DNA from: Phycisphaerae bacterium
GTDB taxonomy: Bacteria > Planctomycetota > Phycisphaerae > UBA1845 > PWPN01
Assembly (NCBI GenBank): GCA_018003015.1
Contig: JAGNEZ010000004.1
Location: 115,430-179,429, forward strand
DNA length: 64,000 bases
Reading direction: 5' to 3'
Position numbers and translations under genes: made by a program. The notes under the pieces were generated by a model that was not told where the DNA came from, ran no database searches, and saw only the letters and a list, made by a program, of their open reading frames with translations. The number at the start of each line of letters is the position of its first letter. The first letter of the stretch is position 1. This document shows positions 42,764-49,508 of this stretch, one piece after another.

Positions 42764-43927
42764 CTAGCTTCTCGCGGCCAGAGCCACGGCCGCATCGAGG
42801 TAGTGTTTGAGCGAAGCCCGGACTTCGTTCATCGTGTCGCCGGCGAATTTCTCGAGAAAGGCCCTGGCAATCTCGAAGGCCACGACATTCTCCGCGACGA
42901 CGCTGGCGGCCGAGACCGCACAGACATCGCTTCGTTCGTAGTCGCTGCGTTCGGATCTGAGGGTGGCGAGATTGACGCTGTCCAGGCCGCGGAGCAGCGT
43001 GGCAATGGGTTTCATCGCCCCGCGGACGACGACCGTCTGGCCGTTGGTCATCCCTCCCTCCACGCCGCCGGCATTATTGCTGCGGCGGGTGAAGCCCAGG
43101 CAAGGGGTGTTCCGGAAGGCGGGGTCGAAGTCGATTCCGTCGTGGACCTCGCTGCCGGGTCGGGAGGCGACGCCGAACCCCAGGCCGATCTCGGCCCCCT
43201 TGAACGCCTGAATCGAGCCCATCGCCTGCAGGAGGCGGCCGTCCAGCTTGTCCTGCCAGCGCATGCAGCTGCCCAGGCCGGGCGGGCAGCCGAAAACGCG
43301 GACCTCGACGAGACCGCCGATGGTGTCCTTATCCTCCTTGGCCTTGCGAACGGCGGCGGTCATCGATGCGACGGCCGCCGGGTCTGGGGTATAGAGGTCG
43401 TTAGCGTCTCGGGCATCTATGAGCTGGTCCGGGGACAGGTCGGCAGGGACCCGGGCCTCGGCCGGGCCGATTCGAGTGACGAAGCCGATGCAGCGGATGC
43501 CGAACGGCTGGAGCACGCTTCGGGCGATGGCTCCGGCGGCCACGCGGGCGGCGGTTTCACGGGCCGATGCCCGCTCCAGCGTCTCGCGGCAGTCGGTGGT
43601 GAGCCACTTGAGGCTGCCGGCCAGATCGGCGTGGCCAGGGCGGGGGCGATGGATCTCCGGGGCCTCGTCGATCCGCCAGTCCCGATTGGGGATCTGGATG
43701 GCGAGGGGAGAGCCGATGGTCCTGCCTCGCCGCACGCCGGACAGGATGTGGATTTCGTCCTTTTCGATGCGCTGCCGGGCGCCGCGGCCGTAGCCGCCTT
43801 GTCGGCGGGCCAGCTCATGGTTGGCCGCGGCGATGTCCAGCTCGACACCGGCGGGCAGCCCCTCAATCAGGGCGATGAGGGCCTGGCCATGGGATTCACC
43901 GGCAGTTCGGTACTCGAGTGTGCTCAT
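42764..43927 (-). CDS. aroC: Chorismate synthase
   Basis: 387 residues from the ATG at 43927 (MSTLEYRTAGESHGQAL); 17 further in-frame codons upstream are not family-like. 'GESHGQALIALIEGLPAG', 'RRQGGYGRGARQRIEKDEIHILSGV', 'HRPRPGHADLAGSLKW', 'RASARETAARVAAGAIARSVL' and 'NAGGVEGGMTNGQTVVVRGAMKPI' are classic AroC signatures. It converts EPSP to chorismate with reduced FMN. The half EPSP-synthase-like protein is 28 kb away and not linked to it. Same strand as the kinase remnant downstream. Confidence 0.96.
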   Translation of the reverse strand: MSTLEYRTAGESHGQALIALIEGLPAGVELDIAAANHELARRQGGYGRGARQRIEKDEIHILSGVRRGRTIGSPLAIQIPNRDWRIDEAPEIHRPRPGHADLAGSLKWLTTDCRETLERASARETAARVAAGAIARSVLQPFGIRCIGFVTRIGPAEARVPADLSPDQLIDARDANDLYTPDPAAVASMTAAVRKAKEDKDTIGGLVEVRVFGCPPGLGSCMRWQDKLDGRLLQAMGSIQAFKGAEIGLGFGVASRPGSEVHDGIDFDPAFRNTPCLGFTRRSNNAGGVEGGMTNGQTVVVRGAMKPIATLLRGLDSVNLATLRSERSDYERSDVCAVSAASVVAENVVAFEIARAFLEKFAGDTMNEVRASLKHYLDAAVALAARS

Positions 43928-44023
43928 GGCGTGCATTCTAGTCAGCTCGGCTTCCGCTCGCCATGAACGGTGTTCCATTGGTTCGCCCTCTGGCGGATAG
44001 TCATGTGTCTATGGGCGGGGGGC

Positions 44024-44051
44024 TTGCATCCGGCCGAAGGGATGGTATGAT
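44024..44051 (+). promoter_or_regulatory. Candidate promoter of the cobalamin-riboswitch operon
   Basis: TTGCAT (44024-44029), 16-base spacer, TATGAT (44046-44051). Transcription would begin near 44058, about 23 bases before the first riboswitch helix. Confidence 0.55.
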
Positions 44052-44080
44052 ACCGCCGGACAAGTGAAGAGTTGCACGAT

Positions 44081-44300
44081 TGCAGGTTCCCGCAAGGGAT
44101 GAACAGGGAAGGGTGGTGAGAATCCACCGCGGACCCGCCGCTGTAATCGGATTGAGTCGGCCACGAAGTGCCATTGTTCGCAAAGGAGTGGGCCGGGCCT
44201 GATCGCAGGCCGGTGCCCCGCTCTTCGCGAGTGAGAAGGCGTGACTGATGGTGAGGAGCCGTTCGGGTCCTCACGTCCGTAAGCCAGAAGACCTGCCTGT
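44081..44300 (+). promoter_or_regulatory. Cobalamin (AdoCbl-type) riboswitch
   Basis: Conserved core: GGGAAGGGTGGTGAGAATCC at 44106-44125, followed by CCGCGGACCCGCCGCTGTAA, the invariant junction. The B12-box region GCCAGAAGACCTGCC lies at 44283-44297. Helix P1 can form from CAGGT (44083-44087) and ACCTG (44291-44295). Between them lies a peripheral domain with GGCCGGGCCTGATCGCAGGCCGG-like stems, so the long class is likely. In known cases cobalamin binding lowers expression of uptake or synthesis genes. Here the regulated genes code for exported proteins. Confidence 0.93.
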
Positions 44301-44414
44301 GAGCGTGTTTTGTCTCGTCATGTGCCTCGGGCTGTGGGCACTGGACGATTGACCGGTTTCCCGCCGGCGGCCGACGGCCGCTCATGGAAGCCGGCTCCTT
44401 CGGTGGAGAAATCG

Positions 44415-44453
44415 ACCCAGTACTCGCTGACGCGGGCACTGGGTTTCTTTTTT
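44415..44453 (+). terminator. Intrinsic terminator of the cobalamin riboswitch
   Basis: ACCCAGT (44415-44421) pairs with ACTGGGT (44438-44444), with an inner CTCGC/GCGGG extension, followed by TTTCTTTTTT (44444-44453). It lies between the aptamer and the first ATG (44492), so the switch probably acts by transcription termination. GGGCACTGG in the 3' arm (44434-44442) also occurs at 44336-44344, where it could pair with the 5' arm as an antiterminator. Confidence 0.85.
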
Positions 44454-44491
44454 GGCGGCTCGCGGTCAGTCGCCGGAAGGAGTCGGTTCGC

Positions 44492-45058
44492 ATGCGAGGA
44501 TCCTCTCGTTGCCCCTGGTTGATGCTGGTTGTCCTGTCGGGGTTTCCGCTCGGCGGGCCATGGGCCCGGACCACGGCGGGTGATGTGGTGGGCGGGGTGG
44601 CTTTTCTGCCCGAGTACTGGGCCGGGGCCGGGTTGAACGAGGCCGTTCTGGTGGTCGATTTCAAGGCCACGGGCGGGAGGGCTTACACGTTCGGCTACCG
44701 CTGGGATGGCCCTGCCACCGGGTATGACATGATCACTGCCGTGGCCGCCGCTGGCGACCTGGACTTCGCCGCCGACTACTGGCCGGGGCTGGGTTACGCC
44801 GTCGACAACATCACCTACCGGGCCGAGGCTGGCGATGCGGGTCTGTATTGGGCTTACTGGCTTGGCACAGGCGACGGTGGCCAGATCGCGTGGTCGGAGG
44901 CGGCCACCGGGATGTCCGGTCGAACGCTGGCCAGCGGCGATTTCGATGGCTGGTACAACGGCTTTGACAACACCCGCCCGCGGCTGCCGGAGCCGGCCAC
45001 GGCCCTGTTGCTGGGCGCGGCGTGCGTACTCCTGCGGCTGCGGGCGCGGCGATCGTGA
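44492..45058 (+). CDS. PEP-CTERM surface protein with transcobalamin-C-like domain
   Basis: 188 residues from the ATG at 44492, with GAAGGAG 9 bases upstream. Signal peptide about 1-29; C-terminal PEP-CTERM tail at 166-188 ('PEPATALLLGAACVLL' then Arg-rich), for exosortase handling. The middle (about 50-155) has 'FGYRWDGPATGYDMITAV', 'GYAVDNITYRAEAG', 'GLYWAYWLG' and 'TLASGDFDGWYNG'. This order of motifs resembles the C-terminal beta domain of transcobalamin/intrinsic factor (Pfam DUF4430-type), which contacts cobalamin. The resemblance is my reading by eye. First gene under the riboswitch, so a B12-capture role is the simplest inference. Confidence 0.8.
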   Translation: MRGSSRCPWLMLVVLSGFPLGGPWARTTAGDVVGGVAFLPEYWAGAGLNEAVLVVDFKATGGRAYTFGYRWDGPATGYDMITAVAAAGDLDFAADYWPGLGYAVDNITYRAEAGDAGLYWAYWLGTGDGGQIAWSEAATGMSGRTLASGDFDGWYNGFDNTRPRLPEPATALLLGAACVLLRLRARRS

Positions 45059-45123
45059 CCCGGGGACGGGGTAGAACGTCGGCGATTCCCCTGCCCTCTC
45101 GAGGTGGGGTACAGGAGGCAGCG

Positions 45124-46272
45124 ATGACCGGCAGGCAGGTTCATGCGAGCGGGCGGCGGAAGCGGTGTCGGGCCGTTCGGACCGCAGTGTTCACCGCACT
45201 GCTGCTTGCGGCGGACGCGAGCCGGGTGGCGGGCGCCGGCGACCGGCCGGAAGACTATGCGGTGGAGGTGGTCGAGTATGTCGAGGGGACGGGCGTCCCC
45301 AAGGATTGGCTGGTGGGGATCAGGTTCAATAACCAGGTAGAGGTCGAAAGACCACTTCCACCTCTGAGAAGGCCCACAGTCGACACCACCGGCGATGGCT
45401 TCAATACCGGCTCGCCCAGTCAGGCCGTGCCGGTGGTGCCGGTCAATCCGCCTCTGCGGTACTACGAGCTTGTTTCGGTCGGTGAGGGCGGGCGGCTGAT
45501 CCTCAAGCTGGGGCGGCCGGCCACCGACAACCCCGCGAATCCGTACGGGATCGATTTCATCGTCTTCGGGAATACCTTCGCCGTCATCGGCGGCACGACA
45601 CCCTGGCGGAATGGCGACCCAAACCTGACGACACTGGGGACGGTGATGCTCTCTCGCGAGCCGGGTAAGGTCTCCGTAAGCAGGACCGGGCCCCCTGAGG
45701 CGTACGACTGGCACACGTTCGAAAACGGCCCGTACGCCGACGATTTCGCGCCAACGCTCGGGCGTCGATACGATCCCGCCGCTCCGGACCCTTCGCTGGG
45801 AGTGTGGAACCTGTGGTGGGGGCAGCCGACGGATCCGCGCGTGCCGCTCAAGCCCGCCTTAACGGCGACCCGAATCTCCGGGCGAACGGTTGCCCAGGCA
45901 GCCCGGTTGTACGGGGTGTCGGCCGGCGGCGTCGGCTTCGACCTGGCGGCGGTCGGGCTCGACTCGGCGCTGTACGTGAAGATCGAGAATCCGATCGGCA
46001 GCGGCCTCTCGCCGGATATCGATGCGGTGGCGATCGTGGACGCGGCCGCCGCCCAGGCGGATCCCGATCTGGATGGTGATCTGGACGTGGATGAGGATGA
46101 CCTTGTGGTGTTCCGGGCCTGCGTGACCGGCGCGGCCATGGGGCCGCCCTCCGCCCCCTGCCGTCAAGCGGACCTGGACGGCGACAGCGACGTGGATCAA
46201 TCCGACTTCGGCTTGCTGCAGCGCTGCAGGGGCGGGCCGGACGAGCTGGTCTTTCCCGATTGCGTGAGGTGA
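45124..46272 (+). CDS. Exported protein with dockerin-type C-terminus
   Basis: 382 residues from the ATG at 45124, with AGGAGG 5 bases upstream. Signal peptide with hydrophobic core about 20-31. The main domain (about 45-310) is beta-rich, with 'YGIDFIVFGNTFAV' (141-154), 'GKVSVSRTG' and 'ENPIGSGLSPDIDAVAIVD', a pattern seen in surface 'secreted FGN-F' type proteins. The C-terminus (313-382) has two calcium-loop repeats, 'DPDLDGDLDVDEDDL' and 'DLDGDSDVDQSDF', like the dockerin-type tails of planctomycete surface proteins. Second gene of the riboswitch operon, 65 bases after the PEP-CTERM gene. Confidence 0.8.
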   Translation: MTGRQVHASGRRKRCRAVRTAVFTALLLAADASRVAGAGDRPEDYAVEVVEYVEGTGVPKDWLVGIRFNNQVEVERPLPPLRRPTVDTTGDGFNTGSPSQAVPVVPVNPPLRYYELVSVGEGGRLILKLGRPATDNPANPYGIDFIVFGNTFAVIGGTTPWRNGDPNLTTLGTVMLSREPGKVSVSRTGPPEAYDWHTFENGPYADDFAPTLGRRYDPAAPDPSLGVWNLWWGQPTDPRVPLKPALTATRISGRTVAQAARLYGVSAGGVGFDLAAVGLDSALYVKIENPIGSGLSPDIDAVAIVDAAAAQADPDLDGDLDVDEDDLVVFRACVTGAAMGPPSAPCRQADLDGDSDVDQSDFGLLQRCRGGPDELVFPDCVR

Positions 46273-46285
46273 ACGAGGGTAACGG

Positions 46286-47110
46286 ATGATGCTCCTAACT
46301 GGCGACAGAACAGAATCGGACCAAGCTGCTCGGCGGCGGGCCATCGGCGGAAGGGGCGGCCTTCAGGCCGATCGGCCAGGTTTCACGCTGATCGAAGTGC
46401 TGGTGGTCGTGGCCGTGGTCGCCCTGCTGGTCGCGATTCTCCTGCCCGCGCTGGCCCGAGCCCGCGGGCAGGCCCGAGGGGTGACCTGCCTGAGCAACCT
46501 GCGCCAGATGGCCGTGGCCGCCCACACCTACACGCAATCGCACAAGGACCGTTACCCGATCGCCTACGCCTTCTCCATGCACGAATCCACTTTCACCTCG
46601 TACGCGTGGGATTTCACCAGCACCAGGGATTGGAGTGGAGGCGGGAGCCGAGTGGTGGCGGGCTTGCTGTGGCAGGGGGGAGCGGACAAGGATGTGCAGC
46701 AGTGCCCGTCCTTCCGCGGGACCTCGAATTGGCAGCAGGATCCCCGGACGGGGTACAACTACAATACGAGCTACATCGGGCACGGCACAGCCGAGTCCAT
46801 CGTCGAACCGGCTCGCGCCGGCGATGTGCGAATGCCGTTTCGCTGCGCCCTGTTTGGTGACGGTGAGTATGCCGATGGGGCCAACAAGTTCATGCGCGCT
46901 CCATGGAAGAACCCTGGCGATGACAGCTTCACCGGGCGGTATTCGGGTACGCAGGGTTTCCGGCACGCCGAGCGGACAAACGTCGCCTTCTGCGACGGCC
47001 ACGCCGAGCCCCGCGCACAGCGGTTCAACGATACCTACGCCGCCGACCAGGCGATGATTGCGCCGGGAACGGGTTTTCTGTCCAAGGACAACGGCGCCTA
47101 CGGGGGGTGA
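46286..47110 (+). CDS. Prepilin-like protein with H-X9-DG tail
   Basis: 274 residues, GAGGG 6 bases before the ATG. The prepilin peptidase site and hydrophobic helix are clear: 'PGFTLIEVLVVVAVVALLVAILLPAL' region at about residues 31-56, cleaved before Phe. The C-terminal part has 'HAERTNVAFCDGHAE', which fits the His-x9-Asp-Gly motif of planctomycete prepilin-like proteins. Such proteins probably assemble into, or are exported through, a type II secretion/type IV pilus-like fibre. Only 13 bases after the dockerin gene, so it belongs to the same B12-controlled unit. Confidence 0.88.
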   Translation: MMLLTGDRTESDQAARRRAIGGRGGLQADRPGFTLIEVLVVVAVVALLVAILLPALARARGQARGVTCLSNLRQMAVAAHTYTQSHKDRYPIAYAFSMHESTFTSYAWDFTSTRDWSGGGSRVVAGLLWQGGADKDVQQCPSFRGTSNWQQDPRTGYNYNTSYIGHGTAESIVEPARAGDVRMPFRCALFGDGEYADGANKFMRAPWKNPGDDSFTGRYSGTQGFRHAERTNVAFCDGHAEPRAQRFNDTYAADQAMIAPGTGFLSKDNGAYGG

Positions 47111-47194: not shown

Positions 47195-48220
47195 ATGAAG
47201 AAAGAGGATCATCAAGAGGTCCAGCGGATCGTGGCCATGCGGGCCGTGCGGAAGGCCTGCCAGCTCTGCCAGTCGGTTCGTGACACTCTGGTGTCCGCCG
47301 AGACGTTAGCCAAGAAGGACAAGTCGCCCGTCACGGTGGCGGATTTCGGAGCCCAGGCGATCCTCATTGGCGAACTGGCCCGGGCGTATCCGGACGTGCT
47401 CGTGGTCGGGGAGGAGGATGCCAGCGCACTCCGCGATCCGACTAACGCGGCGATCAAGGATCGCGTCGTCGAGCAGGTGCGGAGGGTAGATTCCTCACTG
47501 GACGAACCACGGATCCTCGAGGCCATCGATCGCGGGGCCCATGACGGCGGCTCCGGCGGGCGGTTCTGGACGCTCGACCCGATCGACGGGACCAAGGGTT
47601 TCCTTCGCGGAGACCAGTATGCCATCGCCCTGGCGTTGATCGAGGAGGGCCAGGTGACCCTGGGCGTGCTCGGCTGTCCGAACCTGCCCTGGTTGGAGGG
47701 TGGCCCGGGGCCGACGACCGGGGAAGGGCAGGCCTGCAGACGGGGCTGTGTGTTCGTCGCCAGCCGGGATCGAGGAGCGTTCCTCTACCCGCTTCAAGGC
47801 GGTGAGGGGACTCAGGTTCGCGTGACCGACGTGACCGATCCCGCCCGGGCGTCCTTCTGCGAATCGGTCGAATCCGGCCATTCCTCCCACGGCGACGCCG
47901 CCCGGATCGCCACACTGCTGGGCGTCACCGCTCCGCCGTTTCGCATCGACAGCCAATGCAAGTACGCCGCCGTGGCCCGCGGCGACGCGTCCATCTACCT
48001 GCGATTGCCGATGTCCGAGGGTTATAGGGAGAAGATCTGGGACCATGCCGCCGGGTGGATTGTGGTTCAGGAGGCGGGCGGCGAAGTGAGCGACGTTCGC
48101 GGTCGTCCGCTGGACTTTGCCGCCGGACGGACGTTGAGCAGGAACCAAGGGGTGGTGGCCACGAACGGCCGACTGCACGACCGGGTCATCGCGGCCGTCA
48201 GGGAGACGCTCCGGATCTGA
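47195..48220 (+). CDS. 3'(2'),5'-bisphosphate nucleotidase (inositol monophosphatase family)
   Basis: 341 residues. Metal-site motifs of the family: 'DKSPVTVADFGAQA' (42-55), 'VVGEEDAS' (71-78), 'WTLDPIDGTKGFLRGDQYAIALALIE' (DPIDGT at 128-133) and 'IWDHAAGWIVVQEAGG'. 'GTKGFLRG.QYA' and the length match the Hal2/SAL1-type enzymes that hydrolyse PAP/PAPS to AMP/APS, rather than short CysQ or inositol monophosphatase. It would protect sulfate assimilation and RNases from PAP. Starts 84 bases after the pseudopilin gene; whether it shares the riboswitch transcript is open. Confidence 0.88.
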   Translation: MKKEDHQEVQRIVAMRAVRKACQLCQSVRDTLVSAETLAKKDKSPVTVADFGAQAILIGELARAYPDVLVVGEEDASALRDPTNAAIKDRVVEQVRRVDSSLDEPRILEAIDRGAHDGGSGGRFWTLDPIDGTKGFLRGDQYAIALALIEEGQVTLGVLGCPNLPWLEGGPGPTTGEGQACRRGCVFVASRDRGAFLYPLQGGEGTQVRVTDVTDPARASFCESVESGHSSHGDAARIATLLGVTAPPFRIDSQCKYAAVARGDASIYLRLPMSEGYREKIWDHAAGWIVVQEAGGEVSDVRGRPLDFAAGRTLSRNQGVVATNGRLHDRVIAAVRETLRI

Positions 48221-48252: not shown

Positions 48253-49248
48253 CTACGACGCGGCACCGGCGGTAATAGGTAGGCAAGGGTACTCTGCGTA
48301 TCGGTTCCAGGTTCGACGGACGACGTCGGCCATCATGTCGATGAAGAGCGGATGATCGTTGACCGTCTGAGCCCGTGTCACGGCCACGCTGATCTCCCGC
48401 CCGATTTCGACCATCCGGTGGTCCAGTTCGTAGATGACCTCGACGTGGTCGGTGGTGAAGCCGATGGGAATGAGCACCGCCGCCGACAGGCCGCGCTGCT
48501 GTTCGGCGCGCAGGTATTCCGCGACGTCGGGCCCGAGCCAGGGCTCCTCCGGCCGCCCGCTGCGGCTCTGGAAAACCAGCACCCAGTCCTTGCACTCGAG
48601 CTGATCGACCACTTGCTGGCAAGAAGTTCTTATTTGGTCAACATAGCGGCATTCATCCGCCATGGCGACGGGGATGCTGTGGGCGGTGAAGAGCAGTCGG
48701 GCCCTGGGCTGCATCTGGGGTTCAAGCCGGCGGAACGCGGCACGGACTTGGTCGACGTTGGCACCGATGAACTTCTCGTGGTCATACCAGTCCTCCACGT
48801 AGGCCACCTCGACGTCCGGCAGGCCGCGGGCGACGAGTCGGCGTCGGGCGTCGCGAATGTCCTGCTTGTATTGGCCGCAGCTCGGATACGAGTGGTGGGG
48901 GGCGGAGATGAAAGCGATGACCCGGCGGGCACCCTCCCGGGCCAGGTCCACGAACATGTCGGACAGATAGGGGTGCCAGTTACGCATGCCCAGGTGAATT
49001 GGGACGTCGATCCCGGATTCGTGGAGCTTTTGGCGAAGCCGCCGGGCCTGGCGCTGGATGATCTCGGTCATCGGCGAGACGCCTCCAAAGAGGTTCAGAT
49101 AGCGCTCGGCGATCTCGTCGATGCGGGCTCGCGGGACGGGCTTGCCACGAACGACGTTCTCCAGGAAAGGGCGAACGTCGCCGGGCCCGTTAGGGCCACC
49201 GAAACCGATGATGACTACGGCGTCAAAGGGTGTCCTTGTGGAATCCAT
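48253..49248 (-). CDS. hemH: Ferrochelatase
   Basis: 331 residues from the ATG at 49248 (MDSTRTPFDAVVIIGFGGP). 'MRNWHPYLSDMFVDL' region, 'SAPHHSYPSCGQY', the catalytic His in 'TAHSIP' (188-193), 'FQSRSGRPEEPWLGPDV' and 'PIGFTTDHVEVIYELD' with the conserved Glu. It inserts iron into protoporphyrin or coproporphyrin. The choice between the two pathways cannot be made from this sequence alone. An open frame reaches 49461, but those residues are low-complexity and unlike the family. Confidence 0.94.
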   Translation of the reverse strand: MDSTRTPFDAVVIIGFGGPNGPGDVRPFLENVVRGKPVPRARIDEIAERYLNLFGGVSPMTEIIQRQARRLRQKLHESGIDVPIHLGMRNWHPYLSDMFVDLAREGARRVIAFISAPHHSYPSCGQYKQDIRDARRRLVARGLPDVEVAYVEDWYDHEKFIGANVDQVRAAFRRLEPQMQPRARLLFTAHSIPVAMADECRYVDQIRTSCQQVVDQLECKDWVLVFQSRSGRPEEPWLGPDVAEYLRAEQQRGLSAAVLIPIGFTTDHVEVIYELDHRMVEIGREISVAVTRAQTVNDHPLFIDMMADVVRRTWNRYAEYPCLPITAGAAS

Positions 49249-49508
49249 GCCTGCAGTCTGCGCCCTTTCGGGTGAACGATCAAGAGGCCAGTCGGTCTTG
49301 CTTCGGCCCTGATCTCCAGCCAAAGGGGGGACACGCGGCGGGCTGGCCCGTGCAATGAGTGAATCCGACGGGGAATCGTCTATCGGCGATGAGCGAGGGG
49401 AGAAAGGCGGACTATGTCGCGATGAGCACCGCCATGGGGCCTGTCCGGAGACCCTCGGCAAAGCCTGCGTCGAGGAAGCGGAGCGGTATCCACCTGGCGA
49501 AACCGCGG

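Follow-up and report, generated by a model that had tools for sequence, protein, structure and literature searches.

The stretch of DNA analysed here (the window, 64,000 nucleotides) comes from the 6.86-Mb genome of a planctomycete (G000; 144 contigs, 98.7% complete). It contains a cobalamin riboswitch followed by a terminator and by three genes, whose products are here called P1, P2 and P3. We consider it probable that this operon is a B12-repressed module for capturing cobamides outside the cell, which would feed the importer BtuFCD. Homology identifies P2 as a BtuH-type B12-binding domain, the fold of P1 is that of the β domain of transcobalamin, and P3 belongs to a pseudopilin lineage found with such operons.

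The mechanism that we propose is as follows. When cobalamin is low, the riboswitch would let transcription pass the terminator, and P1, P2 and P3 would be exported. P2 (BtuH-type) and P1 (transcobalamin-β-like) would bind cobamides outside the inner membrane, P1 being anchored by its PEP-CTERM-like tail and P2 by its dockerin-like repeat. P3 would most likely join or seed a pseudopilus resembling that of type II secretion, which presents the binders or pulls the cobamide-laden complex across the outer membrane. Import of the cobamide for use by MetH and other enzymes would then fall to BtuF and BtuCD.

No description of such an operon was found in the literature searched, which covered few of the subscription journals. 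New here are a planctomycete version without BtuB, the fact that its most constant protein is a pseudopilin, and a riboswitch-controlled bacterial protein with the transcobalamin β fold.

A conserved operon behind a cobalamin riboswitch

The riboswitch aptamer is full-length and scores 98 bits in cmscan, against a gathering score of 31.5, and it is the sole match to RF00174 in the whole genome. Between the aptamer and the first gene, at 44413-44453, is a strong hairpin followed by TTTCTTTTTT, with a folding free energy of -23.2 kcal/mol for positions 44405-44458 (z -3.85). Similar terminator-like hairpins were found at 51 of 96 riboswitch loci of the taxonomic order, where 9 were expected. Both elements had been described in the original prediction, made from the sequence of the window, and both are confirmed. 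The promoter that it placed upstream of the riboswitch is the one element it reported that could not be confirmed, a consensus scan having found none there. The chosen starts of P1, P2 and P3 have Shine-Dalgarno-like sequences (AAGGAG, AGGAGG and GAGG, respectively).

Table 1 Features of the operon and its neighbours, numbered by position in the window
Feature	Position	Strand	Basis and description
Proposed sigma-70-like promoter (TTGCAT ... TATGAT)	44024-44052	+	Sequence only; consensus scan negative
Cobalamin riboswitch aptamer (RF00174), complete	44067-44314	+	cmscan 98 bits, E 3.1e-23, model positions 1-189 of 189
Intrinsic terminator in the aptamer-to-first-gene interval (riboswitch expression platform)	44413-44455	+	Hairpin and T-run
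P1	44492-45058	+	Open reading frame, 188 residues; predicted exported, PEP-CTERM-like tail; transcobalamin/intrinsic factor β-domain fold, residues ~46-159
P2	45124-46272	+	Open reading frame, 382 residues; predicted exported; BtuH-type domain, residues ~39-306, and C-terminal dockerin-like repeat
P3	46286-47110	+	Open reading frame, 274 residues; pseudopilin with N-methylation signal, DUF1559-type, near-threshold H-X9-DG motif
Chorismate synthase	42764-43978	-	Sequence look; divergent from the operon
HAL2-type 3'(2'),5'-bisphosphate nucleotidase	47195-48220	+	84 bases downstream of the operon
Ferrochelatase-like gene	48253-49461	-	Sequence look; convergent on the operon

The genomes of 101 relatives were searched for cobalamin riboswitches, and the 95 loci retrieved were searched with profiles of the operon proteins. 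Gene order was counted across eight families of the taxonomic order at 83 riboswitch loci (the window included), each with at least 3.5 kb downstream. A pseudopilin is present at 77 of these loci, P2 at 65 and both at 62. The 557 kb that follow the riboswitches of the order contain 84 pseudopilin matches, and 717 kb of flanking sequence taken as a control only one; for P2 the corresponding numbers are 82 and two. The layout of the operon is therefore not due to chance. The P2 and P3 genes commonly overlap by four bases across the riboswitch loci, which suggests coupled translation.

The usual arrangement in the relatives is the riboswitch, then one variable exported protein, then P2, then P3. 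The variable slot is filled by P1 at 16 loci, by a β-propeller at 22, by a PQQ-type propeller at 23, by a DUF4465 protein at 3 and by unnamed families at 13; at 18 loci a P2-type protein leads and a PQQ protein takes second place. In family f39 (L217, L222 and L224) and in the cultured strain Lacipirellula limnantheis I41 (L330) the pseudopilin gene directly follows the riboswitch; in L330 a P1-type hit and P2 come after it. A scan of named genomes added further cases from Phycisphaerae, Sedimentisphaerales, Kiritimatiellae, Lentisphaerae and L. limnantheis, with a riboswitch present at 15 of the 16 loci tested against Rfam. Rfam was used for the key loci; a regular expression for the riboswitch recovers 43 of 136 known examples, and a non-match to it is uninformative.

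P1 and P2 are fused into one open reading frame of about 520-830 residues, usually with a pseudopilin next, at about 18 loci (L296, L300, L305, L306, L308, L309, L311, L317, L319-L325, L327, L336 and L339). Most of these belong to the Planctomycetes-Verrucomicrobia-Chlamydiae (PVC) group, namely to Kiritimatiellae, Lentisphaerae and Verrucomicrobia. The test named in the original prediction was whether the gene order recurs under cobalamin riboswitches in relatives. It is conserved across the taxonomic order and beyond, which supports the proposal of a surface system for cobamide capture that is repressed by B12.

Two putative cobamide binders

A profile of the P2 family matches BtuG1 (8blw) in the PDB with an E-value of 7.6e-11 and BtuH2 (7biz) with 4.6e-7, and single P2 members from relatives match 8blw with E-values of 8e-19 and 6e-17. 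The predicted structure of P2 from the window has a pLDDT (predicted local distance difference test) score of 85, and its best Foldseek match is again 8blw (E 2.5e-6). The model superimposes on 8blw and on 7biz with a Z-score of 12.6 each, over 160 residues and with 22-24% identity; the next unrelated fold reaches 8.6.

In BtuH2, Asn399 contacts the phosphate of B12 and Phe401 its lower ligand (PMC8941943). Asn399 was placed as the N of the GNAF motif by reading the printed alignment. Its equivalent in the window is N150 of P2, which is invariant in all 27 sequences compared, and the equivalent of Phe401 is F152, which is F in 16 of the 27. By homology P2 is a BtuH-type B12-binding domain, and it very probably binds cobamide.

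P2 shares its fold, its family profile and the phosphate-contacting Asn with BtuH2 (BT_1956) and with the BtuH half of BtuGH/BtuG1, both of Bacteroides thetaiotaomicron, and like them it stands under a cobalamin riboswitch. It differs from BtuH in coming from a planctomycete, in having no recognised lipobox, and in carrying a dockerin-like tail where BtuH has PKD domains; the fold of residues 262-374 resembles dockerin with a Z-score of 7.4. Unlike the BtuH loci, its operon has no BtuB, and has a pseudopilin after P2. BtuGH is a fusion of a β-propeller with BtuH (PMC12751083), and it has a likeness in the relatives, where a first-slot β-propeller and P2 form one open reading frame of about 690-1080 residues (L074, L075, L087, L101 and L129). 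The planctomycete first-slot propeller gave no match to the PDB by sequence, so it is not called BtuG here.

P1 was modelled by AlphaFold2 with a pLDDT of 82 overall and of about 84-97 over residues 31-160. A Foldseek search with this model, which is blind to the riboswitch context, returned as its top 16 matches only the transcobalamin/intrinsic factor (TC/IF) β domain or the bacterial, DUF4430-like structure 3u7z, with modest E-values (1.7e-3) and a probability of 1.00. The best alignment to the TC/IF β domain has a Z-score of 12.0 and a root-mean-square deviation of 2.1 Å over 99 residues. TC, IF, haptocorrin (HC) and 3u7z all score 10.4-12.0, over 93-103 residues, and there are no other strong matches: the next group, of other β-grasp folds, reaches 6.2. 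The domain occurs 20 times in the 101 genomes. In 19 cases the distance from an upstream cobalamin riboswitch is 191-1316 bases, and the twentieth copy lies where a short contig ends. Fold and context together suggest that P1 is likely to bind cobamide. It differs from the transcobalamin-type carriers in being bacterial and riboswitch-controlled, in having a PEP-CTERM-like tail, and in lacking both the α-barrel partner domain and any significant sequence similarity.

Surface B12 binders under riboswitch control are known in Bacteroidetes, namely BtuG, BtuH, BtuJ and BtuK (PMC8941943, PMC12751083), and DUF4465 proteins bind B12, including one from the planctomycete Mucisphaera (PMC13398666). 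In related operons BtuJ/DUF4465 stands where P1 does in the window, ahead of P2 and P3; one first-slot protein matches the DUF4465 family PF14717 with an E-value of 4e-52. DUF4465, P2 and P3 also occur together, in varying order, in G157 and G227, which represent two further families of the class, and in G267, from a different class. BtuJ/DUF4465 has a different fold from P1 and is absent from the window operon.

According to the original prediction, none of the three proteins is a known part of BtuBCDF. Family-profile matches of P1-P3 indeed include no BtuB, BtuC, BtuD or BtuF, but P2 falls in a known family of B12 binders and P1 has the transcobalamin β fold.

The pseudopilin and its possible role in passage of the outer membrane

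P3 has a prepilin N-methylation signal (PF07963, 28.6 bits against a cut-off of 21.2; TIGR02532, 28.8 against 16.3) and a match to PF07596 over the cut-off; the H-X9-DG motif is visible in its sequence. The prepilin signal and the DUF1559 start are shared with the pseudopilins of type II secretion and type IV pili (DUF1559, H-X9-DG type), from which P3 differs in its position behind a B12 riboswitch and in its lineage. A tree that includes 48 other pseudopilins shows only 3 switches of label between operon and other, where each of 200 shuffles gave 29 or more, and one pure group holds 65 of the 84 operon copies; an earlier tree, with 7 background sequences, was uninformative. Among the f7 genomes searched, some other sequence matches P3 of the window more closely than the operon pseudopilin does, so the claim of a separate lineage is based on the tree. 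On this evidence P3 is a dedicated pseudopilin of an operon-specific lineage, separate from the others tested.

In surveys of 61 genomes, a FecCD/BtuC-like permease was found in 60 and B12-dependent MetH in 58, and CobS, required for the completion of cobalamin, is weak or missing in the majority. The genome of the window has a BtuCD-like pair outside the operon (contig C40), and G018 has a BtuF-D-C cluster. Barrels of TonB-dependent receptors were found in 25 of the 61 genomes and plugs in 24, with controls as expected. There was no barrel in 36 and no plug in 37, including the single-contig genomes G018, G022, G043 and G059. Among good genomes (completeness 90% or more, contamination 5% or less) without a TonB receptor, 27 of 28 carry the riboswitch-pseudopilin operon.

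This taxonomic order provides a natural test of how B12 passes the outer membrane in cells that have no TonB receptor. Nearly all the relatives have MetH and a BtuC-like permease, and the operon supplies candidate parts for the outer-membrane step; its conserved arrangement may be a means of collecting B12 for bacteria that lack the usual gate for it in the outer membrane. We put forward, tentatively, the possibility that a B12-repressed pseudopilus carries cobamide-loaded binders through the outer membrane. This would be TonB-independent B12 uptake in planctomycetes and their relatives, and the transcobalamin β fold would serve bacteria as a domain for capturing B12, whether by kinship with the animal carriers or by convergence. 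Such a role for P3 would agree with work on planctomycetes in which dextran was bound by pili-like fibres at crateriform structures and taken up into the periplasm, the fibre protein being unnamed there (PMC5394234). The BtuG-BtuB-BtuFCD loci of Bacteroidetes are likewise cobalamin-riboswitch operons of several surface B12 binders with different folds, whereas the planctomycete operon has no TonB receptor or ATP-binding cassette (ABC) genes, and many good genomes of relatives have no TonB receptors.

A number of results weigh against the proposed capture mechanism. P1 gave no match in sequence searches of the PDB with two versions of its family profile, and its comparison by hhalign with TC, IF and HC is not significant (P 0.1), the alignment sharing with these carriers the register of a helix, a strand and a YW motif. 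The case for B12 binding by P1 therefore rests on fold and context. Membership of DUF4430 (PF14478) was considered for P1 and rejected: none of 15 members has a Pfam match, profile comparison is unsupportive, and the fold alone agrees. The window P2 on its own gives only weak dockerin-like matches to the PDB by sequence and none to BtuH, which is why the family profile was needed. A further contact of BtuH2, Gln333 in the PAPGQ motif, is kept in 8 of the 27 sequences, all in one branch, and is absent from P2 of the window. The PEP-CTERM, dockerin and H-X9-DG labels of the original prediction are fair, but their scores are borderline: 16.2 bits against a cut-off of 16 for TIGR02595 in P1 (with 12.9 against 20.7 for PF07589), 15.6 against 22.9 for the dockerin type I family PF00404 at the C-terminus of P2, and 17.9 against 19 for TIGR04294 in P3. 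The genome has 73 pseudopilin-like matches, so the presence of P3 alone means little, and transport by a pseudopilus is the weakest step of the proposed mechanism. Finally, the genome encodes one TonB-dependent receptor (a 714-residue frame), which makes BtuB-like passage possible in this bacterium. The original suggestion of a route unlike TonB/BtuB alone is supported in part, since the receptor-less genomes indicate that the module need not use TonB/BtuB.

Pseudopilins classically serve type II secretion. The main competing explanation, which we regard as unlikely, starts from this role: P1 and P2 would scavenge B12 at the surface, P3 would be a co-induced type II secretion pseudopilin for their export only, and the cobamide would cross by another porin or TonB receptor. 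P1 and P2 do carry export signals and directly precede P3, and the operon is also found in 21 of the 25 TonB-positive genomes. However, a general secretion pseudopilin would need neither control by B12 nor an operon-specific lineage, and there are the 27 good genomes that have the operon and no TonB receptor.

It is rather improbable that P1 and P2 instead form a capture complex like BtuG-BtuB and pass cobamide to the single TonB receptor of the genome. BtuG and BtuH do work with BtuB in Bacteroides (PMC10404256, PMC8941943), and the receptor has weak BtuB-family scores. These scores are far under the BtuB cut-offs, however; the receptor fits the TOL_0244 family best and is not near the operon, and more than half of the relatives surveyed, single-contig genomes among them, lack a barrel or a plug.

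We also consider quite improbable a module that holds B12 externally, in the exopolysaccharide or at the surface, in a siderophore-like or storage role, with binders that are shed or are recaptured later by the cell or its neighbours. The two tails, PEP-CTERM-like and dockerin-like, point to proteins kept outside the cell, and vesicle-borne capture by BtuJ is known in Bacteroides (PMC12751083), but then the only B12-regulated genes, in a genome whose MetH depends on B12, would have no part in importing it, and the conserved pseudopilin would be left unexplained. That the proteins under the riboswitch are surface proteins unconnected with B12 handling, such as adhesins for a change of niche when B12 is scarce, is scarcely credible: P1 and P2 are exported with generic surface tails and pseudopilins also serve adhesion, but the fold likeness would have to be coincidental in two independent folds that each have B12-binding domains as best matches, with an invariant B12-contact Asn in P2 and with DUF4465 in the same slot.

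Extracellular capture of cobamide with onward import remains our preferred explanation. It would extend the range of BtuH to planctomycetes and their relatives, place the fold of the human B12 carriers beside a bacterial B12 switch, and provide a first likely function for one of the many uncharacterised pseudopilins of the phylum.

Neighbouring genes and further loci

The genes on either side of the operon look ordinary in the case of the chorismate synthase and the ferrochelatase-like gene. The HAL2-type nucleotidase lies on the same strand as the operon and adjoins it in its own genus only, and so is probably not part of it.

Two of the first-slot families, C8 (L066, L067, L070, L100, L110 and L113) and C10 (L089, L123, L137, L147, L148 and L150), have only dockerin or sub-threshold Pfam matches. 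Judged by their position, they are candidate new cobamide binders. It is worth adding that one genome from another family (G016) has three cobalamin riboswitches (L062, L065 and L069), each before its own P2/P3-type operon, and that one of these three operons holds several extra exported proteins.

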